Source of the DNA: Alteracholeplasma palmae J233
GTDB lineage: Bacteria > Bacillota_I > Bacilli_A > Acholeplasmatales > Acholeplasmataceae
NCBI RefSeq assembly: GCF_000968055.1
Contig: NC_022538.1
Span: 1,151,499-1,215,498 of the forward strand
Length of the DNA stretch: 64,000 nucleotides
Direction: 5' to 3'
Of the stretch, positions 39,258-64,000 are shown in pieces. Numbering within the stretch: position 1 is the stretch's first letter; each line of letters starts with the position of its first letter. A program made the translations under genes and the position numbers. Below the pieces are notes generated by a model. That model was given only the letters and a program-made list of their open reading frames with translations. It was not told the origin of the DNA and did no database searches.

Positions 39258-39288
39258 AAAAAAAATAACCAGGTTTACCCTAGTTATT
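39258..39288 (-). terminator. Terminator of pot operon 2
   Basis: Ten-bp stem AATAACTAGG / CCTGGTTATT with one wobble pair, 5-base loop and a T-run on the minus strand; it overlaps the stop of the fused gene. Confidence 0.8.
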
Positions 39289-41281
39289 AAGAAATTTTAA
39301 CTTTATTTACCATATTATTAATTTTATCCAGTTCTTCTTGCTTTAAATTTTTAAGTGGTGTCCCCTTAAATCTTACTGGACTATCACTTCCAAGAATTGG
39401 ATAATAAGTCTTATTAGCATATGCCCAATCAGTCAGCCATTCATCTTCTCCAACATAATTAGTAATCATTTCATATGATTTTAATAGCGGTGTTGCATAA
39501 CCTACAACAGAGGCATTTTCATATGCGTTTTCTGGATCTAAAAAGAAATTAATAAACTTATGTGCTAAATCAACATGTTTAGCTTTTTTAGGAATAACAA
39601 AAGCATCCATAAAAGCGATTGTTTGTTCTGGTATATGAATGTCGAAAGTTATTTCATCTAATTTACTACCATCATCTAATTTTAAGTATAGCATATCTAG
39701 AAAATCTCCAGTATAGACGAAAGCTAAATCTAAATTATTTGAAGCAATTCCTTTTTTAAGTGTATCTGTTCCCCACTCATTAATATTAGCTTTAATAAGT
39801 GTATTTTCAGCTTGTTTCAGTAATTCTTCTGAATATACATTAGGGTCTAAGTTTTGTGAGTACATCGCAGCTGCATATGCATTTCTAGAAACATTATACA
39901 TACCTAATCTGGTATTAGAAGGTCTCTTTGTTGGATCCATATATGCTTGCCAACCATACTCTTTTACTGCTTGTTCTAACCCTTCTTTTTTCTTATTATA
40001 CATAAGACCGAAAGTACCCCAAAAATAAGGAACATTATATCTTTCATTACCTTGAGTCATCTTAGATTGTATGCCTAAGACTCCTTCCATATAAGGGTTA
40101 TTGTCTTGATTGTAATTAGATAATTTGCTGTAGTCTATTTCTTGCAATAAATCTTTTTCCATCATCTTTTCAATCATATAATCAGATGGGACTACTAAAT
40201 CATATGCGGTAGTGCCACTTTTTATTTTTGAATAAAATAATTCATTTGAATCGGCAATACTAATTGAAACTTCTACACCAAATTCTTCTTCAAATTTAGC
40301 AACTAAATCATCATTAATATACTCACCCCAGTTTAATAACAATAACTTATTACTTTGACCACATGAAGCAAGTAAAATTGAACTTATTATAATCGTAAGT
40401 AAGAGATATATTTTTTTAGTGTTTAGCATTTTTCTTACCTCTTTTTTTAACATAAGTTGGTATCCTAGAACAAAGGCTAAAGTAACAAGTGTTAATAATG
40501 TTGAAAAGGCATAAACAGATGGTGTTAGACTCTTTCTTCCAATAGAACCATAAATCCAAATAGAAAGATTATCAAAACCATTTCCTGTAGTATAATAACT
40601 AATTACAAAATCATCAATACTCATTGTAAATGCAAGCAATGTTCCAGAAAATACCCCTGAAATAATAGCTGGTAAAACTACCTTGATTAAAGCTTTGTAA
40701 GGTTTTACCCCTAAATCTAATGCAGCATCCATTAAGTTAGGATCTGTTTCTTTTAATTTTGGTAAGACACTTAATATAACATATGGCAATGTAAAGAATA
40801 AATGAGCCATAATTAAAGTAACTGGACCAAAGATATAAGGAAAGATTGGTAAAAGTAAAGAAAAGATAATCATTAAAGAAATACCTGTAACAATATCAGC
40901 ATTTAAAACTGGAATATTATTAAATAACATAACTCTTTGACGTTTCTTTTTAGCAAGCGAATAGATACCAACTGCAATAAAGGTTCCTAGTATAGCCGCG
41001 AGAGCTGTTGAAACAAGACTCACAATTAAAGTATTTGTAATAGCGTTTCTTAAAGAACGATTACTAAACATTTCTAAATACCATTTAAATGTAAGTGATT
41101 TAAACGAATTCACATCACTACTTGAATTAAGTGATTGTAAGGCAATTAATAAAATAGATAAATACATAACAAATATGATTAATCCTAATAATATTTTACT
41201 AATAATTTTGTAAACCTTTTTAAGTTTTGAATAATCTTTATAACCATAGTCTGATAAAGCTGCTTTTGGGTACTTATTCAT
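39287..41281 (-). CDS. Fused polyamine permease and substrate-binding protein (PotC-PotD)
   Basis: 664 residues. Residues 1 to about 280 are a PotC permease: six helices, EAA loop DAALDLGVKPYKALIKVVLP, SIDDFVISYY. From M285 the chain is a full PotD lipoprotein: basic start, hydrophobic core, LASC lipobox (C307), then LLNWGEYIND. The internal ATG at 40429 has GAGGT 7 bases upstream, so a separate 380-residue lipoprotein could also be made. The start overlaps potB2 as ATGA. The lack of a stop between the two halves is what the sequence shows directly; which products exist is unknown. Confidence 0.93.
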   Translation of the reverse strand: MNKYPKAALSDYGYKDYSKLKKVYKIISKILLGLIIFVMYLSILLIALQSLNSSSDVNSFKSLTFKWYLEMFSNRSLRNAITNTLIVSLVSTALAAILGTFIAVGIYSLAKKKRQRVMLFNNIPVLNADIVTGISLMIIFSLLLPIFPYIFGPVTLIMAHLFFTLPYVILSVLPKLKETDPNLMDAALDLGVKPYKALIKVVLPAIISGVFSGTLLAFTMSIDDFVISYYTTGNGFDNLSIWIYGSIGRKSLTPSVYAFSTLLTLVTLAFVLGYQLMLKKEVRKMLNTKKIYLLLTIIISSILLASCGQSNKLLLLNWGEYINDDLVAKFEEEFGVEVSISIADSNELFYSKIKSGTTAYDLVVPSDYMIEKMMEKDLLQEIDYSKLSNYNQDNNPYMEGVLGIQSKMTQGNERYNVPYFWGTFGLMYNKKKEGLEQAVKEYGWQAYMDPTKRPSNTRLGMYNVSRNAYAAAMYSQNLDPNVYSEELLKQAENTLIKANINEWGTDTLKKGIASNNLDLAFVYTGDFLDMLYLKLDDGSKLDEITFDIHIPEQTIAFMDAFVIPKKAKHVDLAHKFINFFLDPENAYENASVVGYATPLLKSYEMITNYVGEDEWLTDWAYANKTYYPILGSDSPVRFKGTPLKNLKQEELDKINNMVNKVKIS
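40427..40443 (-). promoter_or_regulatory. Internal ribosome site and ATG for the PotD half
   Basis: Minus strand AGAGGTAAGAAAAATG, in frame within the fusion (translated there as KEVRKM). Spacing of 7 bases is ideal, and a complete lipoprotein signal follows. Confidence 0.6.
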
Positions 41282-44881: not shown

Positions 44882-45853
44882 TTATTCTGTAATAATTGAT
44901 GAAGAATGTTGTGTATTCGTTGTTCTTTCAGGATGTAGGTACTCACTGATAACCCCAATAGCGGTTGCTGCTTCACCCATACCAGTAACAATCATTTTAG
45001 CTTTTCCTTCATAAAAAACACCGTTACCAGCTGCATAAATTCCTTCAAGATTAGTTTCCATTTTACTATTAACATAAATTAAACCTTTTATACCTTCAAT
45101 GCCCCAATCTTCTAACTTAGATTTAGAGCCTAAAAGTCCGTAATTTACTAAAATAGTATGTGCCGGCATTATTAATAATTCTTTAGTCTTTACATCTTCT
45201 AATTCAATACCTGTAACTTTTTTATCACCTAATACTCTTTTAACTACATAAGGAGTATGTGTTTTTCCATTCAATTTAAGATATTGATCCAATGTATCTT
45301 GATGAGCTCTAAATGCATCTCTTCTATGTACTAAATGTACATTTTCAGTGATACTCTTTAATTCAAGTGCCCAATCCACTGCAGAATCTCCACCACCTAA
45401 AACAACTATTTCTTTATCCTTATGATCTTCTAAGTTATCAATATGGTAAATAACACCTTCTAAATGGCTGTTTTCTACATCTAGAGGCATTGGTGTAAAA
45501 CTACCACCGCCGTGAGCAATCAAAATAGTTTTTGTCTGAAATACTTGTTGATTAGTTGTTACTTCGTAATAATCATTTACTCGTTTAACTTCTAATGCTT
45601 CTTGATTTAAATATACAGGTACTTCTTTTTCAAATCTTTTATATTGTTTGATACATTCTTTAACATAATCTTCAGCTTTTATTTTATAAAAGCCAGGTGC
45701 ATCATATATTGGTTTATCTTTATATAAATTAATAGGTTGTCCACCCATATAAGGTAATGATTCAATAACAGCTGCATCTAACTTTCTTAGTCCTGCTAAA
45801 AAGGCAGCATATAATCCAGTTGGTCCAGCACCTATAATAAGTAATTCTAACAT
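44882..45853 (-). CDS. Ferredoxin/flavodoxin-NADP+ reductase, type 2 (YumC-like)
   Basis: About 323 residues. FAD site IIGAGPTGLYAAFLAGLR and NADP site VVLGGGDSAVDWALEL, the latter followed by VHRRDAFRAHQ. It has the thioredoxin-reductase fold but no CxxC between the two sites, which is typical of the YumC group that passes electrons between NADPH and ferredoxin or flavodoxin. Start at ATG 45853 with AGGAGACG upstream. Single gene. Confidence 0.88.
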   Translation of the reverse strand: MLELLIIGAGPTGLYAAFLAGLRKLDAAVIESLPYMGGQPINLYKDKPIYDAPGFYKIKAEDYVKECIKQYKRFEKEVPVYLNQEALEVKRVNDYYEVTTNQQVFQTKTILIAHGGGSFTPMPLDVENSHLEGVIYHIDNLEDHKDKEIVVLGGGDSAVDWALELKSITENVHLVHRRDAFRAHQDTLDQYLKLNGKTHTPYVVKRVLGDKKVTGIELEDVKTKELLIMPAHTILVNYGLLGSKSKLEDWGIEGIKGLIYVNSKMETNLEGIYAAGNGVFYEGKAKMIVTGMGEAATAIGVISEYLHPERTTNTQHSSSIITE

Positions 45854-45882
45854 TTTTTCACGTCTCCTTGTATGCCTTAATA

Positions 45883-45891
45883 AGTATAGCA
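45883..45891 (-). promoter_or_regulatory. YumC-type gene extended -10 promoter
   Basis: Minus strand TGCTATACT, 30 bases before the ATG. Confidence 0.5.
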
Positions 45892-45936
45892 TATTAGAAA
45901 GTTTTTTTTATTATCTATGCTTTAAAATTATATTTT

Positions 45937-46467
45937 TTATAAATAAGCAATTTCTTCAGGAATTTTACGATATAAAACGTATGCTAATATAATCTTAATA
46001 AAATCTACTACCATGTAAGGTGTAAAGTATAAAAGGGCATCCATATAAGACATCTTCGTATAGATTGAAAAATAGATTGTAGAAAGTGGATAGACTAAGA
46101 CAATACTTACAAGGGTTGCTACTAATATATCATAGAAAATATTTTTAGTTTTAGATTTTAAGAGTGCAATTAAAAAAGCAACCACTGGAAATAAATATAA
46201 AAATCCAGCAGTAGGTCCTACAAAAGGAGCTATTCCTCCTACTTTATTACTAAATATAGGTAGACCAATTAATCCTAAAACAAGGTATGTTATAACACAT
46301 AAAAATGCATCTGTTGGCTTAAGTAAAAAACCAATTAAAACAATCACAGCTGTCTGTAATGTAAATGCAATTCCTACAACCGGCACTTGAAAAGGAGGCA
46401 ATAAGTAGGCACTAACAGATAACAAAGCCGTTAAAAGTGCAACTTTTGAGAGTCTATACAATGTCAT
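45937..46467 (-). CDS. bioY: Biotin transporter BioY
   Basis: 176 residues with six helices, the S-component of an ECF-type biotin importer. Family pattern: ALLTALLSVSAYL, then VGIAFTLQTAVIVLIG, TYLVLGLIGLPIFS, GPTAGFLYLFPVVAF. It overlaps birA by 14 bases and is the last gene of the FASII operon, so biotin uptake is tied to the biotin-dependent carboxylase. No ECF A/T genes are nearby; BioY may act alone or with shared subunits. Confidence 0.92.
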   Translation of the reverse strand: MTLYRLSKVALLTALLSVSAYLLPPFQVPVVGIAFTLQTAVIVLIGFLLKPTDAFLCVITYLVLGLIGLPIFSNKVGGIAPFVGPTAGFLYLFPVVAFLIALLKSKTKNIFYDILVATLVSIVLVYPLSTIYFSIYTKMSYMDALLYFTPYMVVDFIKIILAYVLYRKIPEEIAYL

Positions 46468-46999
46468 ATTGAGTTATTAACTCCTTTATTATTTTTTTAA
46501 ATATTGAATTAATCTGATATTGTAAATTTGTTAAAAGTCTAAAAGAGGTTGCCTTGGTTTCAATAAAATCAACTTGGTTTATATTTAAGCCAATTCCGAT
46601 AATCATATATGTAAAAGCATTTTTTTCAACAAGTGTTTCAATTAAAATGCCACATAATTTCTTATTTTCTACATAAATATCATTAGGTTCTTTAAATCTA
46701 GCTATAATATCAAACTGCTTGATTGTTTCTAGTAAACTTCTTGTAATCCAGTTTTTAATTTTTTCCATTTTATCTAATGTGACTTTTTTTAAAAGAAGAG
46801 AAAACGTTAAGTTTTCTCCTATTTTAGATTCCCATTTCCTATCAAATTGACCCTTTCCTTTTGTTTGAAAATTAGCTTTAACAATCGTAAAACTAACTTC
46901 TTTTAGGTAATTTCTTTTTAAATAGTCATTTGTAGAATCTATCTCATTAAATTCTTTTATTCTAAGCTTAATTGATTGCAAAAGATATCGTTGCCTCAC
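46454..46999 (-). CDS. birA: Biotin-protein ligase (single-domain BirA)
   Basis: At most 181 residues; attaches biotin to AccB. Catalytic pieces: FNEIDSTNDYL, TKGKGQFDRKW (biotin loop), KEPNDIYVENKKLCGILIE and IGIGLNIN. There is no N-terminal helix-turn-helix, so it is an enzyme only and not a repressor. The start is uncertain: GTG 46999 is the limit, while TTG 46981 gives a more usual N-terminus. It overlaps the 3' end of fabZ. Confidence 0.88.
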   Translation of the reverse strand: MRQRYLLQSIKLRIKEFNEIDSTNDYLKRNYLKEVSFTIVKANFQTKGKGQFDRKWESKIGENLTFSLLLKKVTLDKMEKIKNWITRSLLETIKQFDIIARFKEPNDIYVENKKLCGILIETLVEKNAFTYMIIGIGLNINQVDFIETKATSFRLLTNLQYQINSIFKKIIKELITQYDIV

Positions 47000-47390
47000 A
47001 TACTAAATTTTCTCCAACGTAAGCCTTAGCAGCACCAACCCCAAAACTTCCTCTTAATTTAATTAATTCACATTCTAGCCTTAATTCATCACCAGGTAGT
47101 ACGCTTTTTCTAAATTTAGCTTCTTTAATTCCAGCAAAAAAAGCAATTTTTCCCTTATACTCTTCTTTAGATAATAAGATTACTGCACCTACCTGAGCAA
47201 GCGATTCAATAATTAAAACACCTGGCATAACTGGAAGTTCAGGGAAATGACCTTTAAAATAAAATTCATCTTTAGTAAGCCTTTTAATGCCAACAGCTCT
47301 TGTTCCTTCTAATTCTATAATTTCATCTATTAATAAAAATGGATCTCTATGTGGTATTATTTTCTTTATTTCTTCTTGATTTAAAGTCAT
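46968..47390 (-). CDS. fabZ: 3-hydroxyacyl-ACP dehydratase FabZ
   Basis: About 140 residues, hot-dog fold. IIPHRDPFLLIDEI, then the catalytic GHFPELPVMPGVLIIESLAQ with His and Glu. Removes water in each elongation cycle. Start at ATG 47390 (GGGAGG 7 bases upstream), sharing one base with the fabF stop (TAATG). Confidence 0.95.
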   Translation of the reverse strand: MTLNQEEIKKIIPHRDPFLLIDEIIELEGTRAVGIKRLTKDEFYFKGHFPELPVMPGVLIIESLAQVGAVILLSKEEYKGKIAFFAGIKEAKFRKSVLPGDELRLECELIKLRGSFGVGAAKAYVGENLVCEATISFAIN

Positions 47391-48637
47391 TAGTTTTCCT
47401 CCCATTTTTTAAAAATTAAAACTGCATTGTGTCCACCAAACCCAAGATTTGTATTCATTGCATATTTAATATCTTTTTTTACACTTTGGTTAGGGGTGTA
47501 GTTTAGATCACACTCTAAAGCTTTAACTTTATAGTTGATTGTTGGTGGAATTATCCCTTGTTCTAAACTTTTTAGACATACAATTGACTCAACTGCTCCG
47601 GTTGCCCCTAGCATATGACCTGTCATAGATTTAGTAGAGCTTATATTAACATTGTATGCATGTTCTTTTAAAGCTTGTTTAAAGCCTTGTGTTTCAAGTT
47701 TATCATTTAGATATGTTGAGGTTCCATGAGCATTAATATATCCAATTTCTTCTTTTTTAATACCTGCATCTAAAATAGCAAACTCAATTGCCTTTGTAAT
47801 ACCAGATGCTGTTTCATCTGGTGCAGTCATATGAAAAGCATCAGACGTTGTGCCATAACCAACAACTTCACCATAAATTTTAGCATTTCTTTTTAAGGCA
47901 TGTTCATAGGATTCTAATATTACAATACCTGAACCTTCTCCCATGATAAATCCGCTACGTTCTTCATCAAATGGGATAGAAGCTCTATTCACATCTTCTG
48001 ATGTACCAAGGGCTCTTAAAGATAGAAAGCCTCCAATCCCAACTTCATTAATAGAAGCTTCGGCTCCACCTGCTAAAGCAAGATCTAAATAACCATGTTG
48101 AATACTTCTAAATGCTTCACCGATTGCATTCGTAGAAGCACTACATGCAGTAATAATTGGCAAACTTGGTCCTTTAAGTCCTAATTTAATAGATATCATT
48201 CCAGCTGTCATGTTAGCAATCGAATTAGGTATAAAGAAAGGTGATAATCTTGTAGGATCATTTTTTTCAGTTACTTTTTTAATTTCATCTGAAATTGTTG
48301 TTAGACCACCAATACCACTACTTACATAAGTCCCAAAGCGATATGGATCGTAATCATTTTCTGTTAGACCTGCATTTTTATAAGCTTGAACTGCCGCAAT
48401 CGTTCCTAATAACATAACCCTATCAGCTCTTTTGATTTCTCTTTTGTCAAAGTAATCTTCTAAGTTAAAATTTTTAAGTTCTCCTGCAAGTTTAGCTTTA
48501 AATTTAGTCGTGTCAAAAGACTTAATAAAATCAATTCCATTAACACCATTGACTAAGTTAGTAAATGTTTCTTCTACATTATGCCCTACAGGGGTTAAAG
48601 CACCCATTCCTGTAATAACTACTCTTTTTCTTTCCAT
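47390..48637 (-). CDS. fabF: 3-oxoacyl-ACP synthase II (FabF)
   Basis: 415 residues, thiolase fold, condensing enzyme of chain elongation. Catalytic Cys C165 in TACSASTNA; the two His lie in NAHGTSTYLND and TKSMTGHMLGATGA. N-terminal RVVITGMGALTPVG. Full length. Follows fabG by 8 bases. Confidence 0.96.
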   Translation of the reverse strand: MERKRVVITGMGALTPVGHNVEETFTNLVNGVNGIDFIKSFDTTKFKAKLAGELKNFNLEDYFDKREIKRADRVMLLGTIAAVQAYKNAGLTENDYDPYRFGTYVSSGIGGLTTISDEIKKVTEKNDPTRLSPFFIPNSIANMTAGMISIKLGLKGPSLPIITACSASTNAIGEAFRSIQHGYLDLALAGGAEASINEVGIGGFLSLRALGTSEDVNRASIPFDEERSGFIMGEGSGIVILESYEHALKRNAKIYGEVVGYGTTSDAFHMTAPDETASGITKAIEFAILDAGIKKEEIGYINAHGTSTYLNDKLETQGFKQALKEHAYNVNISSTKSMTGHMLGATGAVESIVCLKSLEQGIIPPTINYKVKALECDLNYTPNQSVKKDIKYAMNTNLGFGGHNAVLIFKKWEEN

Positions 48638-48645
48638 TCTTTCAC

Positions 48646-49386
48646 CTACATCGCTAATCCGCCATCAATGCTGATGACTTGTCCTGTAATATATGAAGCA
48701 TCTGGACTAGCTAAAAAGGCTACTGCATTAGCAATATCTTCAGCATGTCCTAATTTTTTCAAAGGGATTTGTTCTAATACGTTATTAATAATTGTCTCAG
48801 GTAGTTTGTCTGTCATTTGAGTTTGGATAAATCCTGGAGCAACCGCATTAACTGTAACACTTCTTGATGCTAATTCTCTTGCCAAAGTTTTTGTAATTCC
48901 TATGACACCAGCTTTTGCCGCACTGTAGTTAGATTGTCCTGCATTACCCATAATGCCTGTTACAGAAGAAATATTGATAATTCTTCCATATCCTGATTTT
49001 AGTAAAACCTTTGATACATGTCTACAAACATTCCAAACACCTTTTAAGTTAGTTGAGATAACTCTATCAAATTGTTCTTCTTGCATACGTAGTATTAATG
49101 CATCATCTGTGATTCCAGCATTATTGACTACAATATTTAGATTTCCTAGTTTTGTAACAACCTCTTTTACCATTTGTTCTACTTCTTGATATTTACTTAC
49201 ATCTGCTTTTATTGCTATCACTCTAACATTAAATGCTTCTAGTTCTTTAACTACGGATGCTGCTTGTTCATCGCCTACATAATAGTTAAGTGCTATATCA
49301 TAACCAGATATTGCTAATTTGTGGGCAATAGCTTTTCCAATTCCAGTTGTACCACCTGTTATTAACGCAACTTTTTTATCACTCAT
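48646..49386 (-). CDS. fabG: 3-oxoacyl-ACP reductase FabG
   Basis: 246 residues, short-chain dehydrogenase. NADPH site TGGTTGIGKAIAHKLA, NNAGIT, catalytic Ser in INISSVTG and the YSAAK Tyr-Lys pair. C-terminal ITGQVISIDGGLAM is typical of FabG. Confidence 0.96.
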   Translation of the reverse strand: MSDKKVALITGGTTGIGKAIAHKLAISGYDIALNYYVGDEQAASVVKELEAFNVRVIAIKADVSKYQEVEQMVKEVVTKLGNLNIVVNNAGITDDALILRMQEEQFDRVISTNLKGVWNVCRHVSKVLLKSGYGRIINISSVTGIMGNAGQSNYSAAKAGVIGITKTLARELASRSVTVNAVAPGFIQTQMTDKLPETIINNVLEQIPLKKLGHAEDIANAVAFLASPDASYITGQVISIDGGLAM

Positions 49387-49390
49387 TTTA

Positions 49391-50293
49391 TCATCCTCTC
49401 AAATTTATAAAATCTTCGATTTTTTCTATATTGTTAACCATCACTTCTGGATAATTTTTCTTTATTAATTGACTTAAAACTGTTCCAGGTCCCATTTCAA
49501 TGAAATGTGTGTATCCATCTTTAATCATTTGTTCTATGCTTTGATAAAAATATACTGGACTTTGAATTTGTTCTTCTAATCTTTCAAGTAATTCATTTTG
49601 ATTTAAAGGCATAGCAGTTGTATTAAGATAGACACTTTTTGTCGTAGTTATTTGCGGTATTCTGCTTAAATATTCTTTCAACTCTTTACCTGCTTGTTTC
49701 ATAAGTGGAGAATGGAAAGCACCTGATACATTAAGTGTAATGACTCTTTTCGCTCCTGCTTCTTTTAACTTTTGTGAGGCTAATTCAATTGCATCATAAG
49801 TTCCACTAATCACTATTTGGTTTTTTGAATTATAATTTGCAATTACTAATACTTCATTTAATTGTTCTGATATGGAATCACAAATATTTTTAATAATAGT
49901 TTCATCCAAATTGATGACAGCTGCCATTTTTCCTTTATTTCCTACTGAAGCTTTTTGCATAAGTTCTGATCTTTTTTTAACAATTTTTAAAATAGTTTCA
50001 AAATCATAAATACCTGATGCATATAAAGCAACATATTCACCTAAACTAAATCCTAAAAAAGCATCAGCATCTATATATGCTTTACATTTATCATAAATTG
50101 CAATACTCACTAAGGCAATCATTGGTTGTGTGTAATAGGTATCATTGAGTTCATTATTTTTATTTTCTAGAATCTCTAAAACATCATATCCTAAAACCTT
50201 ATTAGCTATTTCTACCATATGAGATGTTAAAAATTCTTTTCCCATATTAGTAAATTGACTTCCTTGACCAGAAAAAACAATAGCCTTTTTCAT
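49391..50293 (-). CDS. fabD: Malonyl-CoA:ACP transacylase FabD
   Basis: 300 residues. N-terminal VFSGQGSQFTNMGKEF, catalytic Ser in FLGFSLGEYVAL, GAFHSPLM with the catalytic His, and GPGTVLSQLIKK at the end. Loads malonyl groups onto AcpP. Overlaps fabK by 4 bases (ATGA). Confidence 0.95.
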   Translation of the reverse strand: MKKAIVFSGQGSQFTNMGKEFLTSHMVEIANKVLGYDVLEILENKNNELNDTYYTQPMIALVSIAIYDKCKAYIDADAFLGFSLGEYVALYASGIYDFETILKIVKKRSELMQKASVGNKGKMAAVINLDETIIKNICDSISEQLNEVLVIANYNSKNQIVISGTYDAIELASQKLKEAGAKRVITLNVSGAFHSPLMKQAGKELKEYLSRIPQITTTKSVYLNTTAMPLNQNELLERLEEQIQSPVYFYQSIEQMIKDGYTHFIEMGPGTVLSQLIKKNYPEVMVNNIEKIEDFINLRG

Positions 50294-51222
50294 AGTACTT
50301 GAAGTTCCTTTTGGTATTTATTAACACCTTCAAATAATTCTTCTAATACTTGTTTAACTGGTTTAATTTCTTTTACTAATCCTGAAATTTGTCCAGCCAT
50401 AAATGAACCATTATCAACATCGCCTTCAAAAACTGCCTTTCTTAAAGACCCTAAGGTTTTAGTTTCAAGTTCTTCTAAGCTAGCCCCTTCGTGAGTCATC
50501 TTTAAGTATTCTACGGCCATTTTATTTTTTAATACTCTAACAGGCGCTCCTGTGTTTCTTCCTGTAACAACTGTTTCAGTATCTCTTGCGGCTACTACTT
50601 TTAGTTTATAGTTTAAATGTACTGGGCATTCTTCTGTTGCAAGTAAAACTGTTCCTAATTGAACACCTTTAGCTCCTAGTGCAAAAGCAGCCAATACGCC
50701 TCTTTTATCTGCAATACCACCAGCAGCTATCACTGGTATAGTAACTGCATCAGCTACTTGTGGAATTAAAGCCATCGTCGTTAATTCTCCAATGTGTCCG
50801 CCTGCTTCAGTTCCTTCTGCAACAACTGCATCAGCACCAGCTCTTTGCATTCTAACTGCAAGGGCTACTGATGGAACAACTGGAATTACTATCATTCCTG
50901 CATTTTTCCATGCTTCCATATAAATACCTGGACTACCTGCACCTGTTGTAATAATTTTAACGCCTTCTTCAATTACCATTTGAGCAATATCTTTAGCATG
51001 TGGACTCATGAGCATGATATTTACTCCAAAAGGTTTTGATGTTAATTGTTTACATTTTCTAATTTCTTCTCTTACCCAATTAACATCATTTCCTCCTGAA
51101 CCTATTAAACCTAGTCCACCTGCATTAGAAACAGCTGAAGCCAATTGTGCAGTAGCAATATTTGCCATTCCACCTTGAATAACTGGATATTTAATATTAA
51201 GTAATTCTGCTATATTTTTCAT
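50290..51222 (-). CDS. fabK: Enoyl-ACP reductase II (FabK)
   Basis: 310 residues, FMN-dependent TIM barrel of the nitronate-monooxygenase/FabK family. Begins with LLNIKYPVIQGGMANIATAQ; contains GGLGLIGSGG, ADAVVAEGTEAGGHIG and VIAAGGIADKRG. Catalyses the last step of each cycle, replacing FabI, which is absent here. Its place within the fab cluster favours FabK over nitronate monooxygenase. Confidence 0.95.
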   Translation of the reverse strand: MKNIAELLNIKYPVIQGGMANIATAQLASAVSNAGGLGLIGSGGNDVNWVREEIRKCKQLTSKPFGVNIMLMSPHAKDIAQMVIEEGVKIITTGAGSPGIYMEAWKNAGMIVIPVVPSVALAVRMQRAGADAVVAEGTEAGGHIGELTTMALIPQVADAVTIPVIAAGGIADKRGVLAAFALGAKGVQLGTVLLATEECPVHLNYKLKVVAARDTETVVTGRNTGAPVRVLKNKMAVEYLKMTHEGASLEELETKTLGSLRKAVFEGDVDNGSFMAGQISGLVKEIKPVKQVLEELFEGVNKYQKELQVL

Positions 51223-51232
51223 TTAATTTCTC

Positions 51233-52162
51233 CTAAATATCAATAATTGCTGATCCCCATGTAAACCCTCCACCAAAGCCAACTAATAAGACTTTCTTAC
51301 TAGTTTTTTGAGTATCCTTGTATTCTGAAAGTGCAATGGGTATGCTTGCTGCTGAAGTGTTTCCATATTTATCAATATTGATAAAAACTTTATCTATATC
51401 AATTTTCATGATTTTTACTACATGATCAATGATTCTTTTATTTGCTTGATGGAAAATAATACCATCAATATCATCTATTTCTAGTTTAGCATATTCTAAT
51501 ACTTTATTAATAGCAACAGGTATCATTTGAACTGCAAATTGATATACTTTTTTTCCGTCCATTTTTAGATAACGAGAAGCATATAAGATATCTTCTGTAT
51601 CACCTTTTGAGTCACTATAGAAATATACTTCATTTTTAGGTTCATTTGTTCCTTCTATAATCATAGCACCTGCGCCATCACCAAATAAAATACATGTGTT
51701 TCTATCAGTATAATCAATAATTTGACTCATCTTTTCACTACCTATGACAAGTGCTGTTTTAAATTTACCGGTTACTAATAAGTTACTAGCTATTTCTAAA
51801 GCATAAACAAATCCAGTACATGCAGCATTAATATCAAACGCCATGATTTGTTTATCATTTAATCCAAGTCTTGCTTGAACCAAATTCGCAATAGATGGGT
51901 TTCTATTATCATTGCTCATGGTAGCAACTACAATTAAATCTATTTTTTCTTTATCATAATTAGATTTAGTTATAGCATCTAATGCTGCTTTATATGCTAA
52001 ATCTATATTTTTTTCTGTCTTAGCAATTCTTCGTTCGATTATTCCTGTTCTAGTTTGAATCCATTCATCTGATGTTTCTACTATTTGTTCTAAATCTTTA
52101 TTTGTTAGTATATCTTCTGGGACATACTTTCCTGTTGATACTACCTTGATTCTAGGATTCAT
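51233..52162 (-). CDS. fabH: 3-oxoacyl-ACP synthase III (FabH)
   Basis: 309 residues, first condensation of acyl-CoA with malonyl-ACP. Catalytic Cys in DINAACTGFVYAL; His in FHQANKRIID; Asn in KYGNTSAASIP; C-terminal GFGGGFTWGS. N-terminal GKYVPEDILTN and TGIIERR. Overlaps accA by 4 bases. Confidence 0.95.
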   Translation of the reverse strand: MNPRIKVVSTGKYVPEDILTNKDLEQIVETSDEWIQTRTGIIERRIAKTEKNIDLAYKAALDAITKSNYDKEKIDLIVVATMSNDNRNPSIANLVQARLGLNDKQIMAFDINAACTGFVYALEIASNLLVTGKFKTALVIGSEKMSQIIDYTDRNTCILFGDGAGAMIIEGTNEPKNEVYFYSDSKGDTEDILYASRYLKMDGKKVYQFAVQMIPVAINKVLEYAKLEIDDIDGIIFHQANKRIIDHVVKIMKIDIDKVFINIDKYGNTSAASIPIALSEYKDTQKTSKKVLLVGFGGGFTWGSAIIDI

Positions 52163-52983
52163 ATATCCTCCTTTGGTTCCTGGCTATTAGTAAAAACACC
52201 AATATTTCTAAATTTATTATATCTATTTGTAAGTAATTCTTCTGTATTTTTTTTAACTAATTCTTTTAATGTCTTTGTTAAATATTTTTTAAAGGCTTCA
52301 ATACCTTCATCAGGATTAACTGATAGAGGAACCTTTTCTTTAATAATCTCATCAACAATTTTCATTTCTTTTAAATCTAATGCTGTCAGTTTCATTAACT
52401 CTGCTGCCTCTTTTGCTCTTTGACTATCCTTAAATAAAATAGCTGCAAACCCTTCTGGAGATAAGATAGAGTAAATACTATTTTCAAACATAGCAAGAGA
52501 ATCTGAAACACCAATAGCTAATGCCCCACCTGATCCTGCTTCTCCTAAAACCACACTAATAATTGGTGTTTTAAGTGTAATCATCTCTTTTAGATTATTA
52601 GCAATCGCATGAGCTTGTCCTCGCTCTTCAGCCTTAATTCCAGGATAAGCTCCTGGAGTATCAATAATTGTAATAATGGGTCTACCAAATTTTTCTGCTT
52701 GTTTCATTAATCTAAGTGCTTTATGATAACCCTCTGGATGAGGCATTCCAAAATTTCTCATAATTTTCTCTTTAGTTGTTACACCTTTTTCTTGGGCAAT
52801 AATTGTGACTGGAGTATTTCCAAAAAAAGCTAGGCCACCAATAATAGATTGATCATCACCAATATATCTGTCTCCGTGAAGTTCAATAAAATCTGTGAAG
52901 ACTCTTTCTATTAGAGTTTTTGAGGTAATTCTTTTACTATCTCTCGCTAATAAAACTTTTTCCCATGCTGTATGATTATTCAT
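52159..52983 (-). CDS. accA: Acetyl-CoA carboxylase carboxyltransferase alpha subunit
   Basis: 274 residues, crotonase fold. Characteristic: AWEKVLLARDSKRI, FTDFIELHGDR, MPHPEGYHKALRLMKQAEKFGRP (only its landmarks), IDTPGAYPGIKAEERGQ, GEAGSGGALAIG, ILSPEGFAAILFKD. Together with AccD transfers the carboxyl group from biotin to acetyl-CoA. Shorter than the E. coli protein at the N-terminus, as in Gram-positives. Confidence 0.95.
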   Translation of the reverse strand: MNNHTAWEKVLLARDSKRITSKTLIERVFTDFIELHGDRYIGDDQSIIGGLAFFGNTPVTIIAQEKGVTTKEKIMRNFGMPHPEGYHKALRLMKQAEKFGRPIITIIDTPGAYPGIKAEERGQAHAIANNLKEMITLKTPIISVVLGEAGSGGALAIGVSDSLAMFENSIYSILSPEGFAAILFKDSQRAKEAAELMKLTALDLKEMKIVDEIIKEKVPLSVNPDEGIEAFKKYLTKTLKELVKKNTEELLTNRYNKFRNIGVFTNSQEPKEDI

Positions 52984-53845
52984 ATATACCTCTTTGATGC
53001 AGTGTTAAAAGTTGTGTTAAAACACTTTTCATATCTTTTCTATGAACAATTAAATCTACTTGTCCTTTTTCTAACTGAAAATTTTCTGTTTGAAACCCTT
53101 CAGGTAAATCTTCTCCAATTGTTTGTTTAATGACACGAGGTCCTGCAAAACCTATAAGGGCTGTTTTCTCTGCAATATTAATATCTCCTAATGCTGCAAA
53201 GCTGGCTGCTACGCCTCCTGTTGTAGGATTAGTCATTACACTAATATAGAGTTGATTTAATCTACTTAATGCTGCTGAAGTTTTCGCCATTTGCATTAAT
53301 GAAAGAATACCTTCTTGCATTCTTGCTCCTCCTGAAGCACTAAAAATAATAAGAGGCAGTTTATCTTGTTCTGACAATTCTATTAAGCGGGTTAATTTTT
53401 CTCCCACCACACTACCCATACTTCCCATCATAAATTGACTATCTAATATAGCAATATAGACCGGAATTTTATTTATTTTTGCTGATGCACAAATAAGGGC
53501 TTCATCTAATCCAGAAAATTTTTGTGCAGTACTTAATTTATCTTCATATCCAGGCATTAAAAGCGGGTTACTTGCTTCAATGTTTTTAAAAAGATGAGTT
53601 ATTGAATCCTCATCAACAATCATCTGTAATCTTTTTTTTGCCCCTATTCTAAAATGGTGCCCACAATATGGGCACACATGTAAGTTTAGTTCTAATTCTT
53701 TGTTATATAAAGCACTCATACATGCTTCACATTGACTGAAAATATGATCAGGGATATCTATAGGTTTGTACTTAAACTCCCTTTTTCTAACAATTTTTTT
53801 AAATTCTAGTACTTTTTGTTTACGTTCATTTAATAAACTCTTCAT
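52976..53845 (-). CDS. accD: Acetyl-CoA carboxylase carboxyltransferase beta subunit
   Basis: 289 residues. A zinc ribbon with two CxxC pairs (CEAC and CPYC) precedes the crotonase-like domain with FSASGGARMQEGILSLMQMA and TGGVAASFA, GFAGPRVI. Forms the transferase with AccA. Overlaps accC by 20 bases and accA by 8; ribosome site GGAGG. Confidence 0.95.
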   Translation of the reverse strand: MKSLLNERKQKVLEFKKIVRKREFKYKPIDIPDHIFSQCEACMSALYNKELELNLHVCPYCGHHFRIGAKKRLQMIVDEDSITHLFKNIEASNPLLMPGYEDKLSTAQKFSGLDEALICASAKINKIPVYIAILDSQFMMGSMGSVVGEKLTRLIELSEQDKLPLIIFSASGGARMQEGILSLMQMAKTSAALSRLNQLYISVMTNPTTGGVAASFAALGDINIAEKTALIGFAGPRVIKQTIGEDLPEGFQTENFQLEKGQVDLIVHRKDMKSVLTQLLTLHQRGIYE

Positions 53846-55208
53846 GATATTCCTCCATCATTACTGAATGAAATCTAGCAATAAATCCAGTATCATATGA
53901 GCCTTTAATAAACTCCGGATGATGCATAATCATATATTGATATTCAATGTTAGTATCTATACCCTCAATAACAAATTGTTCTAATGCTACTCGCATTTTT
54001 CTAATTGCTTCTTTTCTAGTCTTACCAAAGACAATGAGTTTAGATAACATAGAGTCATAAAACGGTAAAACATCATAATCAGGATAGATAAAACCATCTA
54101 TTCTAACTCCTAATCCTCCTGGTAATAGAATTCTTTTAATTCTACCTGGAGTTGGCATGAAGTTTTTAAATGGATTTTCTGCATTAATACGACATTCTAT
54201 TGCATGCCCTAATATAGTTAAATCCTTTTGTTTTAGAGTTATTTTTTTATCATAGGCAATTTTTATTTGCTCTTTAATCAAATCTACTCCTGTAATCATT
54301 TCTGTCACAGGATGTTCTACTTGAATTCTAGTATTCATTTCAATAAAGTAGAATTTACCCTCTTTATCAACTAAAAATTCTACTGTTCCAGCATTTGTAT
54401 ATCCAACTGTTTTAGCTAATTTCACAGCTGCTTGACCCATTTTTTTTCTCAAACTATCATTGATGAAACTTGAAGGAGCTTCTTCAATCATTTTTTGATT
54501 TCTTCTTTGCATTGAGCAATCTCTTTCAAAAAGATGAATCGTGTTGCCATGATGATCTGCTAAAATTTGTATTTCTATATGTCTAGGATTTGAAATGAAC
54601 TTTTCTATATAAAGTTGATTATCGCCAAAGTTTGCCATAGCTTCAAGTTGAGTTTTTTCAAATACTGATAAAAAATCTTGATCAGAATAAACAATACTTA
54701 TTCCTTTACCTCCACCACCACTACTTGCCTTAATCATCACTGGATATCCAATTTTTTTAGCAATTTTAAGTCCCTCTTTAGCATTTTCAATAATTCCTTC
54801 ACTACCTTCTACGACTGGTATTGAAGCACTAATTGCGATTTTTCTTGCAGTTGCTTTATCACCAAGTTTTTCAATAACTGAAGCTTTAGGTCCAATAAAT
54901 CTAATTTGGCACTCTTCAACCATTGAAACGAATTTAGGATTTTCTGATAAAAATCCATATCCTGGGTGAATTGCATTACATCCAGTAGCAATCGCAGCAC
55001 TTAATACTCTACTCATATTAAGATAACTGTCTTTACTTAAATTGCCACCAATACAAACTGCTTCATCTGCAAGCTTAACATGTAAACTATTTTCATCTGC
55101 TTTAGAATAAATTGCTACTGTTAGAATACCTAGTTCTTTACAAGCTCTTATAATTCTTACTGCTATTTCACCACGATTAGCTATTAATATTTTATTTTGT
55201 GTTTTCAT
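53826..55208 (-). CDS. accC: Biotin carboxylase
   Basis: 460 residues, ATP-grasp enzyme that carboxylates the biotin on AccB. N-terminal ILIANRGEIAVRIIRACKEL, HPGYGFLSEN, ATP-binding SSGGGGKG, EMNTRIQVEHPVTE, and the C-terminal ECRINAE segment. Standard length. Overlaps accB by 17 bases. Confidence 0.96.
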   Translation of the reverse strand: MKTQNKILIANRGEIAVRIIRACKELGILTVAIYSKADENSLHVKLADEAVCIGGNLSKDSYLNMSRVLSAAIATGCNAIHPGYGFLSENPKFVSMVEECQIRFIGPKASVIEKLGDKATARKIAISASIPVVEGSEGIIENAKEGLKIAKKIGYPVMIKASSGGGGKGISIVYSDQDFLSVFEKTQLEAMANFGDNQLYIEKFISNPRHIEIQILADHHGNTIHLFERDCSMQRRNQKMIEEAPSSFINDSLRKKMGQAAVKLAKTVGYTNAGTVEFLVDKEGKFYFIEMNTRIQVEHPVTEMITGVDLIKEQIKIAYDKKITLKQKDLTILGHAIECRINAENPFKNFMPTPGRIKRILLPGGLGVRIDGFIYPDYDVLPFYDSMLSKLIVFGKTRKEAIRKMRVALEQFVIEGIDTNIEYQYMIMHHPEFIKGSYDTGFIARFHSVMMEEYHEEFIK

Positions 55209-55638
55209 TTTCTACAACTGTAAATAAAACGTCATCAAATCCCACAACATTCTTATTTTCTAAACAAACAGAATCAATAACTCCGTCATATGGGCTTGTA
55301 ATTTCATTCATAATTTTCATAGCTTCAATAATGCAAACAACATCACCTTTTTTCACTTTAGAACCTTTAGTTACAAATGGTTCGCTAGTAGGGCTTGATG
55401 ATTCATAATATGTTCCAACAAGTGGTGATTTGATTTCTTTTTTAGGTAAATTAATCGTTGGCTCAATCAATGTTTGATCACTATTTTTTTGTTCTATTAT
55501 ATGATTTGTGATTGTTTTTGGTTCTTCGATGTTATTCTTTGAAAGTTTTAATTTAAAAGAATCCATTTCTAACTCTAAAGACCTCAAAGTTGAACTCTCA
55601 AAATCTTTTATAATACTTTGAATTTCTTTTAGTTTCAT
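55192..55638 (-). CDS. accB: Biotin carboxyl carrier protein
   Basis: 148 residues. Flexible N-terminal half rich in Thr/Pro/Lys, then the biotinyl domain with EAMKIMNEI, where the Lys is the biotin site, preceded by SPLVGTYYESSSPTSEPFV. Substrate of the birA product at the end of the same operon. Confidence 0.95.
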   Translation of the reverse strand: MKLKEIQSIIKDFESSTLRSLELEMDSFKLKLSKNNIEEPKTITNHIIEQKNSDQTLIEPTINLPKKEIKSPLVGTYYESSSPTSEPFVTKGSKVKKGDVVCIIEAMKIMNEITSPYDGVIDSVCLENKNVVGFDDVLFTVVENENTK

Positions 55639-55652
55639 ATATATTTTATTCC

Positions 55653-55877
55653 TTATTTATTTGCTTCAACAAAATTTAGGATATCTTCAATTGTTTTTAG
55701 GCTTGCTGCTTGTTCGTCTGTTACTTCAATATTAAATTCTTCTTCTAATTTCATTACTAATTCTACTACATCTAGACTATCAACATTTAGATCTTCTTGC
55801 AATCTAGTTTCCTTTGTAAGTGTTTTTGAATCTAAATTTAATTCGTCTGCTACTAATTCTATAATTTGGTTTAACAT
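55653..55877 (-). CDS. acpP: Acyl carrier protein
   Basis: 74 residues. Phosphopantetheine site DSL in VDSLDVVELVMKLEEEF; acidic throughout. Carries growing acyl chains through all the Fab steps. First gene of the FASII operon, with AAGGA as ribosome site. No AcpS gene is in the window. Confidence 0.96.
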   Translation of the reverse strand: MLNQIIELVADELNLDSKTLTKETRLQEDLNVDSLDVVELVMKLEEEFNIEVTDEQAASLKTIEDILNFVEANK

Positions 55878-55923
55878 ATTATGTCCTTCTTTCTTTTCTC
55901 TTGATAATACTTTGAATTATAAA

Positions 55924-55942
55924 TGTTTTGATATTCAAAACA
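55924..55942. promoter_or_regulatory. FabT-like palindrome at the FASII transcription start
   Basis: TGTTTTGA-TAT-TCAAAACA, perfect 8-base arms. It covers about +1 to +19 of the predicted transcript and resembles the TTTGATnnTCAAA sites of the MarR-type regulator FabT. No fabT gene is next to the operon. Confidence 0.65.
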
Positions 55943-55949
55943 TATTAAT

Positions 55950-55977
55950 ATTGTATCACGTTTCTACTACTTGTCAA
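55950..55977 (-). promoter_or_regulatory. FASII operon promoter
   Basis: Minus strand TTGACA (55972-55977), 16-base spacer, TACAAT (55950-55955) with extended TG. Predicted start about 55943. Confidence 0.85.
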
Positions 55978-55997
55978 GAATAAGTCGTTTTAGAGTA

Positions 55998-56027
55998 AAA
56001 AAAATACCAGCTTTAAACTGATATTTT
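55998..56027 (-). terminator. Terminator of the GlsB-like gene
   Basis: AATATCAG / CTGGTATT with one wobble pair and a T8 run on the minus strand. Confidence 0.8.
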
Positions 56028-56035
56028 TAATTTAT

Positions 56036-56299
56036 TTATCTTCTTTTTGTAACGAATCTTCCAACAACAATAACAATAATCGATCCTACTACTGATAATA
56101 AAATACCCCATAGTGATAATGCATTTGCATCTCCTACTGGAATTAATTTACCAATAATACCTCCGACTAGAGAACCTAGGATACCGATAATAATATTTCT
56201 AATAAGTCCATCTTTTTTATTTCCTGTTAAGATTGCAGCAACATAACCAATAAGTGCCCCAATCGCTAAGAAAATAAGTAAATTCCATAACCATTCCAT
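56036..56299 (-). CDS. GlsB/YeaQ/YmgE-family membrane protein
   Basis: 87 residues with three hydrophobic helices and the glycine-rich pattern IGALIGYVAAILTG, IGILGSLVGGIIG, SVVGSIIVIVVGRFV. This transglycosylase-associated family is linked to stress in other bacteria, but the function is not known. Single gene with its own terminator. Confidence 0.85.
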   Translation of the reverse strand: MEWLWNLLIFLAIGALIGYVAAILTGNKKDGLIRNIIIGILGSLVGGIIGKLIPVGDANALSLWGILLSVVGSIIVIVVGRFVTKRR

Positions 56300-62349: not shown

Positions 62350-64000
62350 GGGACTGTAACGAAATAAAAGTAACAGTCTATAAAACAAAAAAGCCGCTCT
62401 AGAATCCTAGGGCGGTTTTTTGGTATAATTATAGTATGCAAACACAACAAAATATACAACATAATTTTAACCCAAAACAGTTAAAATTACCACTACAATT
62501 AGACATAAAAATTCCTTTTGATAGTGAAGTTCGTACATTTGATGAAGTATTTAGAAAATTGGAGATAAAAAAATACTTAAATAGCTCAAAAGACCCAAGA
62601 GGTCGTATGGGTTATAATCCGGTTCAAATGTTAAAACTGATCATGTTTTGTCAAATGGAAAAGATTCAATCTTTAAGAGATATGGCAAAAGCTGCTAGAA
62701 ATGATATTAGAATCATGTGGCTTACAGATGAATTAATGCCAAGTCATCAAACAATAAAAACCTTTATGGATAAATACTTAGTTAAAGGAATAGATGAAAT
62801 CTTTTATGAACTAAGTAAGTACTTAATAAAAAAAGAATCTATTGATACAGATAAATTATATATAGATGGTACTAAAATAGAATCGGTGGCTAATAAATAT
62901 AGTTTTACATGGCGTGGTTCTATTGAAAAGTTTAGAGATAAGTTATATAAAAAAATAACCAAACAGATAGAATCCTTAAATAAAAGATATGAAGACTCAG
63001 ATATCTTCTTTCCAATACATGAAACATATAACACTGATAATTTAAATAGCATCAAAGACTTTCTACTTAATGAGATAGATAGGGAATTAATAGAGTTTAA
63101 ATATGGTAAAGGTCAAAGAAAAACTACTTTACAAAGAGATTATGAACATATCTTAGAATATTTAGCTAAACTTGTAGAGTATGAAAGACATTTAAAGATT
63201 ATGGGTAATGATAGAAACTCATATGCTAAAACAGATATAGACGCGACTTTTATGCATATGAAAGAAGATCATATGCGTAATAGTCAATTAAAACCAGGGT
63301 ATAATATACAAATTGGTGTATCAAATGAATATATCCTACATCTAGATATCTATAAAGAACGTAGTGATTATAAAACTTTGATTCCTTTTTTAGAAGGATT
63401 TAAGAAAAGTTATGACTTCTATCCAAAATATCCAGTAGCGGATGCTGGATATGGTGGATTAACGAATTATCGTTATTTAAAACTAAACGATATGGAGCTT
63501 TATCAAAAATATGCAATGTATGCTAAAGATACGCATGACAAAAAAAGAATGAAAGATCCATATTTTCCATTTAACCTTACTAAATCAGGTAATGATTATT
63601 TAACACCTAATGGAGATACTTTAAAGTATCTCTATAGAAATAATCGAGGTAATGATGTATATGAATTACCAAATGGTAAGCGTAAAGAGATTAATGATGA
63701 AAATCTTACATATCAAAAAGAGGTGATTAAAAATCTAACATCACCATTAGGGATTGAATTAAGAGTTCAAAGGTCAATTCAAGTTGAAGGTGCTTTTGGA
63801 GTGATTAAAGAAGCATTTAAAGTAAGAAGATTTAGACGAAGATTAACTCATAATGTTAAAATGGAGTTTTATTTAACAGCTATTGGATATAATTTAAGAA
63901 AATATCATAATAAAAAGTATAGAATAACAGAATAGATATCCACAATAAACTTAAGATTTTAATAGAATCTTCTTTTATCATGCTTAAAAATAGATGTTTT
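62350..64000 (+). mobile_element. IS1182-like insertion sequence, copy 3 (cut by window end)
   Basis: Same left end, terminator (62387-62421) and -10 (62424-62429) as copies 1 and 2. The right end lies outside, expected near 64092. From 63632 onward the sequence differs from copies 1 and 2 at many third codon positions and beyond the stop. Confidence 0.93.
62436..63935 (+). CDS. IS1182-family-like transposase, copy 3
   Basis: 499 residues, intact, and the same protein as copy 2. The nucleotide changes in its last 300 bases are all synonymous, indicating that the donor of this stretch was under selection for function. Leaderless start as in copy 1. Confidence 0.95.
   Translation: MQTQQNIQHNFNPKQLKLPLQLDIKIPFDSEVRTFDEVFRKLEIKKYLNSSKDPRGRMGYNPVQMLKLIMFCQMEKIQSLRDMAKAARNDIRIMWLTDELMPSHQTIKTFMDKYLVKGIDEIFYELSKYLIKKESIDTDKLYIDGTKIESVANKYSFTWRGSIEKFRDKLYKKITKQIESLNKRYEDSDIFFPIHETYNTDNLNSIKDFLLNEIDRELIEFKYGKGQRKTTLQRDYEHILEYLAKLVEYERHLKIMGNDRNSYAKTDIDATFMHMKEDHMRNSQLKPGYNIQIGVSNEYILHLDIYKERSDYKTLIPFLEGFKKSYDFYPKYPVADAGYGGLTNYRYLKLNDMELYQKYAMYAKDTHDKKRMKDPYFPFNLTKSGNDYLTPNGDTLKYLYRNNRGNDVYELPNGKRKEINDENLTYQKEVIKNLTSPLGIELRVQRSIQVEGAFGVIKEAFKVRRFRRRLTHNVKMEFYLTAIGYNLRKYHNKKYRITE

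Follow-up and report, generated by a model that had tools for sequence, protein, structure and literature searches.

What controls the synthesis of membrane fatty acids in bacteria that live without a cell wall? The A. laidlawii group is a model of membrane lipid control. In Alteracholeplasma palmae, the question is raised by a palindrome in front of the fatty-acid synthesis (FASII) operon. This operon lies within the 64-kb stretch of DNA that was analyzed here—the window, to which all coordinates without a prefix refer.

The FASII operon, its promoter, and the palindrome

Thirteen co-directional genes on the minus strand, with a largest gap of 14 nt, make up the operon, just as the preliminary description had it with eleven core genes plus birA and bioY. 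It begins with acpP (acyl carrier protein, 55653-55877) and continues with accB (biotin carboxyl carrier protein, 55192-55638), accC (biotin carboxylase, 53826-55208), accD (52976-53845), accA (52159-52983), fabH (51233-52162), fabK (enoyl-ACP reductase, 50290-51222), fabD (49391-50293), fabG (48646-49386), fabF (47390-48637), fabZ (46968-47405), and birA (biotin–protein ligase, 46454-46999, an ORF from a GTG whose true start may lie further in), and it ends with bioY (biotin transporter, 45937-46467). The names stem from translations—for acpP, accB, and bioY—and from translations plus synteny for the others, with accC, like fakA and plsX further below, used as, or found by, searches; fabV, fabT, degV, the transporters, and the Pr6Pr-type proteins were assigned via family libraries.

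On the minus strand in front of acpP, the promoter consensus scan finds a -35 box TTGACA (55972-55977) and, after a 16-bp spacer, an extended -10 box TGA-TACAAT (55950-55955). This promoter matches the consensus at 11 of 12 positions and is the top-scoring promoter-like site within 45700-56040. Upstream of it, folding detects a terminator-like hairpin with a T run on the minus strand (56000-56028, z -3.9), which the consensus scan had missed. It closes the upstream gene, and, hence, FASII transcription probably begins anew at this promoter. Other promoter-like matches within the operon are about as frequent as expected by chance (55 found, 53 expected) and speak neither for nor against internal starts; the 84-nt gap after bioY contains a further promoter-like sequence. 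By sequence, all 13 genes, birA and bioY among them, appear to depend on a single promoter, with internal starts being possible.

The published promoter map of A. laidlawii—an organism of the same family—gives a distance between the -10 box and the start of usually 5-7 nt, most commonly 6 nt (PMC5138195). Applied here, this spacing predicts a start at 55944-55942, and the palindrome therefore begins at +1 to +3; with the commonest spacing of 6 nt, transcription would start at the A at 55943, which puts the palindrome at +2 to +20. The palindrome itself, TGTTTTGATATTCAAAACA at 55924-55942, is an inverted repeat whose two 8-bp arms match perfectly and are separated by 3 bp, TGTTTTGA-TAT-TCAAAACA, and reads TGTTTTGAATATCAAAACA on the minus strand (55942-55924). 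Its place at the FASII start is thereby confirmed, within at most 1-2 nt of the predicted +1. From its sequence and its conservation in the family, we annotate it as a putative FabT-type operator with no strand assigned. The 13-bp core TTTGA-N3-TCAAA occupies 55927-55939, and TGTTTTGANNNTCAAAACA occurs without mismatch as a single copy in the 1,554,229-base genome.

As an unnamed inverted repeat, the palindrome stands at about chance level: the window holds six perfect 8-bp inverted repeats with a 3-bp gap, compared with 4.0 in shuffles (sd 2.1), and some 8-bp inverted repeat with a gap of 0-8 arises in 8% of the shuffles of the 158-bp intergenic region. The bare palindrome was therefore dropped as evidence of significance, and the convincing support is comparative. 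The specific pattern TTTGA-N3-TCAAA appears in 0.14% of the shuffles of the same intergenic region. A loose genome search allowing up to three mismatches was of no use (47 places, 32 for the reversed control). The preliminary description had called the site FabT-like, and this is borne out: the site matches the FabT probe ANTTTGATTATCAAATT of S. pyogenes (PMC10138225), and its core also precedes the organism's own fabT homologue.

Two other features of the window may be recorded here. A transposase-like ORF at 62436-63935 shares its first residues identically with one at L055:1818-3011 and is an insertion element present in more than one genome copy. A 664-aa ORF at 39287-41281 resembles, by eye, a fusion between a PotC-type permease and a polyamine-binding part of PotD type.

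The gene of the putative FabT-type repressor and its degV partner

The preliminary description had proposed to look in the genome for a FabT-like MarR gene and for further copies of the palindrome; such a gene and a further copy of the palindrome's core were found. The genome has four PF12802 matches above cut-off, and for one of them, a MarR-type protein (G000:C1:1455946-1456401), FabT is the top-scoring NCBIfam model, with 116.8 bits compared with 41.8 for the next. As this score misses the cut-off of the curated FabT equivalog NF050133 (200 bits), we name the protein FabT-type. Its best PDB sequence is FabT of S. pneumoniae (6JBX, E 6.2e-25; next 1.3e-8), and the same entry is the top PDB fold match when the A. 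laidlawii orthologue, which is 67% identical to the A. palmae protein, is modeled (pLDDT 92.4). The protein very probably works like FabT.

The fabT homologue lies away from the FASII operon, directly behind a DegV/FakB gene. The latter scores 277.1 bits with the DegV model TIGR00762 (cut-off 99.7) and 229.8 bits with the FakB1 equivalog NF038249 (cut-off 350), and its start is probably the TTG at L002:2639. The sequence TTTGATATTCAAA ends 21 nt before this start and is the looked-for further copy—a 13-bp core identical to the FASII core in the window. In the whole genome, there are 15 exact cores, of which 12 fall inside genes, and the other three share the identical sequence: those before FASII and degV-fabT, and one before a Pr6Pr-type membrane protein (G000:C1:838183-838195). 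The degV-fabT core is counted here as noncoding; the mechanical ORF call puts it inside an over-extended degV frame. The Pr6Pr-type protein is matched in 67 of 88 genomes, and among the 20 loci taken, the core lies just upstream only in A. palmae itself (L261 and L278 have a core elsewhere, not just upstream); hence, this third copy (L053) is probably due to chance or species-specific. Apart from it, the genome of A. palmae bears no further noncoding exact core.

The genes of the Fak–PlsX route are present as well—fakA with 659.5 bits, plsX with 341.8 bits, and eight degV-type loci—and therefore, judged by homology and gene content, exogenous fatty acids could become acyl-phosphate and acyl-ACP, the latter being the co-repressor of characterized FabT proteins (PMC9083066, PMC13046290).

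Some observations on these searches stand on their own. In a 590-aa ORF (G000:C1:766309-768036; L148, L152), a FakA/YloV match is followed by a DegV match, and the frame looks like a fused fatty-acid kinase and binding protein. The DegV-type match at G000:C1:1350096-1350928 (L150) is interrupted by a stop codon and is possibly a decayed gene. The same 19-bp string occurs three times exactly 318 bp apart (G000:C1:653708, 654026, and 654344), a spacing that suggests a 318-bp tandem repeat.

Conservation and arrangement of the putative operator

Across the 88 genomes of the family, a FabT homologue (E <= 1e-30) is found in 47 and accC in 48. Counted by hand, both genes occur in 43 genomes, fabT only in four, accC only in five, and neither in 36, the last group including all 29 reduced genomes of genus g11, which inflate the co-occurrence. 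For the closest relative in the comparison (G009, same genus, about 90% complete), accC is present without a strong FabT match, and its upstream DNA is cut off.

For the comparison, 400 bases upstream of the first gene were scanned at 48 accC loci and at 48 fabT loci, the latter from 47 genomes. The exact core precedes FASII at 41 of 42 usable loci—or 40 of 42 in a stricter count, as the core of L065 sits in a terminator-like hairpin—and it precedes degV-fabT at 42 of 47, with the reversed control pattern found at none of either. The loci without an exact core are L124 (FASII) and L102, L104, L105, L106, and L107 (degV-fabT); L063, L071, L081, L118, L126, and L127 (FASII) and L108 (fabT) were unusable due to contig ends or an absent neighbor. 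Among 20 inverted repeats of the same composition, no other is found in more than one region, and TTTGA-N3-TCAAA is also the commonest inverted repeat when these are found without prior choice. Fifteen longer FASII regions largely keep the gene order, with the core at the operon front in 14 (including the genome of L065; the fifteenth begins at a contig end), and L132 and L133 each carry one extra upstream core.

The pattern extends further. A scan of named genomes yields 80 fabT loci, in Acholeplasma, Haploplasma, Paracholeplasma, Peloplasma, and as far away as Izemoplasma-type bacteria; degV lies directly before fabT in 79 of these, and the exact core precedes the pair at 72 of 78 usable loci. 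In 28 further genomes, accC was found in 25, and all 23 loci with upstream DNA bear the core upstream (L235 and L236 among them are from Haploplasma and Paracholeplasma).

What else might belong to the regulon was assessed in three more genomes, which together contain 52 exact cores—48 of them read in context and the other four being known FASII or fabT sites. The noncoding cores of G005, which we take to be A. laidlawii PG-8A, precede FASII, fabV, and an OFA-type transporter; two others, at degV-fabT and at an Mrr-like gene, lie close to the start of over-extended frames and were scored as internal to them. The A. laidlawii FASII operon is devoid of fabK, and FabV, an alternative enoyl-ACP reductase, is recognized with 503.4 bits (cut-off 403) and is 98% identical between G005 and A. 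laidlawii QMP (G006). By this assignment, the enoyl-ACP reductase step of A. laidlawii is located outside the operon and under the same putative operator. The exact core precedes fabV in six of 30 genomes, five of them in genus g2 (loci L328-L333; e.g., L286:252-1472), and in seven more, a copy with one mismatch lies near the promoter; the idea that fabV is a target throughout is thus not upheld. An OFA-family MFS transporter has the exact core in front in two genera (L291:311-1486 in G023 and L292:219-1406 in G005). Its closest NCBIfam model is an L-lactate MFS transporter, with a score below cut-off, and it is a possible further FabT-type target.

The preliminary description had the entire operon depend on one site. 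The 13-gene operon stands, but the single site is better replaced by a tandem: 16 bp downstream of the first core lies a degenerate second copy, TTTATAATTCAAA (55911-55923, minus strand), which agrees at 8 of 10 core positions. Only 0.2% of the 13-mers in the window come as close. With up to two mismatches, such a copy follows at 23 of 41 FASII and 24 of 42 fabT sites, and when offsets from -60 to +60 were compared in the relatives, +16 gave the closest resemblance to the core. A tandem operator is more likely than a single site.

The position of the operator relative to the promoter varies. In most relatives within the family, 9-16 nt separate the -10 box from the beginning of the core; by rough patterns, it lies only downstream of the -10 box at 29 of 42 loci and on both sides at 11, and two loci fit neither pattern. 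Eight family loci show two sites 53-55 bp apart that flank the promoter. At 21 of the 23 mostly Izemoplasma-type loci, a core is followed within 2-8 bases by a -35-like TTGAC/T. The operator is thus found before the -35 box in Izemoplasma-type bacteria, on both sides in Acholeplasma, and downstream in A. palmae, and the conserved feature is an operator at the operon promoter rather than its exact place. The earlier wording "exactly at +1" hence holds in A. palmae to within 1-2 nt, but not as a conserved feature, as the core of relatives mostly lies elsewhere.

Ten loci (L237, L238, L244-L246, L248-L250, L254, and L255) in several Izemoplasma-type genomes carry a second core in the acpP–accB interval, frequently just behind a T run, which looks like a separately controlled start for accB. 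In genus g2, cre-like sequences (TGTAAACGTTTGCA and similar) lie beside the upstream operator at L066, L067, L069, and L084, hinting at joint carbon-catabolite control there; near the FASII promoter of A. palmae itself, no good cre site was found.

Probable FabT-type control and the competing explanations

Taking all this together, we give a probability of roughly 0.88 to the reading that FASII is controlled by a FabT-type MarR repressor with the palindrome as its operator and acyl-ACP as co-repressor. Binding, repression, the acyl-ACP ligand, and the action of the second copy are what we infer in the following sequence of events. Exogenous fatty acids would be taken up and phosphorylated by FakA together with a DegV/FakB protein, and PlsX would convert the acyl-phosphate to acyl-ACP. 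This would bind to the FabT dimer and raise its affinity. Sitting at about +2 to +20 and aided by the second copy 16 bp on, FabT would then block RNA polymerase at the promoter. Without fatty acids, FabT would release its site, and acpP to bioY would be transcribed. Because the degV-fabT pair carries the same operator, the repressor would also cap its own supply.

The conserved gene pair suggests a competing view, in which the site is likewise the operator of the FabT homologue and the ligand is something other than acyl-ACP: DegV/FakB with a bound fatty acid or acyl-phosphate would serve as the signal carrier or partner. The constancy of degV directly before fabT (79 of 80 named loci) speaks for this, as does the fact that seven other DegV-type loci exist in the genome, yet one stays with fabT. 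However, the FabT proteins characterized in the literature take acyl-ACP as their signal (PMC9083066, PMC13046290), sharing an operon does not require that the products touch each other, and for FakB4 of S. pyogenes, fatty-acid binding rather than sensing is what the study proposes (PMC10138225); we therefore regard acyl-ACP-independent signaling through DegV as improbable. A broader scheme, for which we see a somewhat better yet still low chance, treats FabT and DegV as an uncoupled module of Acholeplasmatales and Izemoplasma-type bacteria. Here, DegV might take a direct part in sensing by handing the fatty acid or itself to FabT, and FabT dimers would bind tandem sites 16 bp apart. In evolution, the operator would have moved from before the -35 box, via a pair of sites that bracket the promoter at a distance of 54 bp, to the start site as in the window.

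That a different regulator—another MarR-type protein or an unrecognized factor—binds the palindrome is very improbable. The genome does hold three further PF12802 matches above cut-off, one of them ArsR-type by NCBIfam, but the three neighborhoods examined (L001, L003, and L004) show no link to lipids, and the core is common to the promoter of the FabT homologue and tracks that gene across genomes. The repeat could also work at the RNA level, by attenuation or by stabilizing the mRNA through a hairpin at its 5' end, where one of -6.3 kcal/mol is indeed predicted. Yet no T run follows this hairpin, the sequence and not just the pairing is conserved, and at 21 of the 23 mostly Izemoplasma-type loci, the core precedes the -35-like box and would hence not be transcribed from that promoter; we rejected this reading and give it hardly any weight. 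Pure chance is just as implausible: 8-bp inverted repeats as such are no commoner in the window than chance allows, but the core before 41 of 42 FASII and 42 of 47 degV-fabT loci, with none for the reversed controls, is not what a functionless palindrome would give.

The closest known systems are FabT of the Lactobacillales and FakB4 of S. pyogenes. In the Lactobacillales S. pneumoniae, S. pyogenes, E. faecalis, and L. lactis, FabT is likewise of MarR type, has the operator TTTGA-N3-TCAAA, targets FASII, and has its operator before its own gene, and the Fak–PlsX route to acyl-ACP is encoded; a DegV/FakB gene under the same operator is shared with S. pyogenes (PMC10138225). There, fakB4, a DegV gene, is a FabT target, whose FabT-type site ATTTTGATTATCAAA lies between the transcription and translation starts (PMC10138225), whereas here degV lies directly before fabT within a common control region. 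For the Lactobacillales, fabT is described as the first gene of the fab operon and as "perfectly coupled" (PMC13046290); in A. palmae, it is found behind degV and elsewhere in the genome, a difference of gene layout and not of biochemistry. Also in contrast to the Lactobacillales, the operator has a degenerate tandem copy 16 bp on, the protein scores below the NCBIfam FabT cut-off, and one promoter appears to serve the entire operon including birA and bioY.

The literature searched contained no paper pairing FabT with Acholeplasma or Tenericutes. The main text of the A. laidlawii promoter and regulon map, as distinct from its supplementary tables, which may list the motif under a locus tag, mentions neither FabT nor MarR nor fatty acid (PMC5138195).

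By analogy, these wall-less bacteria appear to switch off the synthesis of their membrane fat much as streptococci do. The finding supplies a named repressor, an operator, and a small testable regulon for the control of FASII in mollicutes. If confirmed, it would extend control of the FabT type to bacteria outside the Lactobacillales and to a gene layout that is uncoupled, which might offer a natural contrast to the "perfect coupling" described for streptococci and enterococci (PMC13046290). The pairing of degV and fabT might, in addition, give a handle on the roles of DegV proteins.
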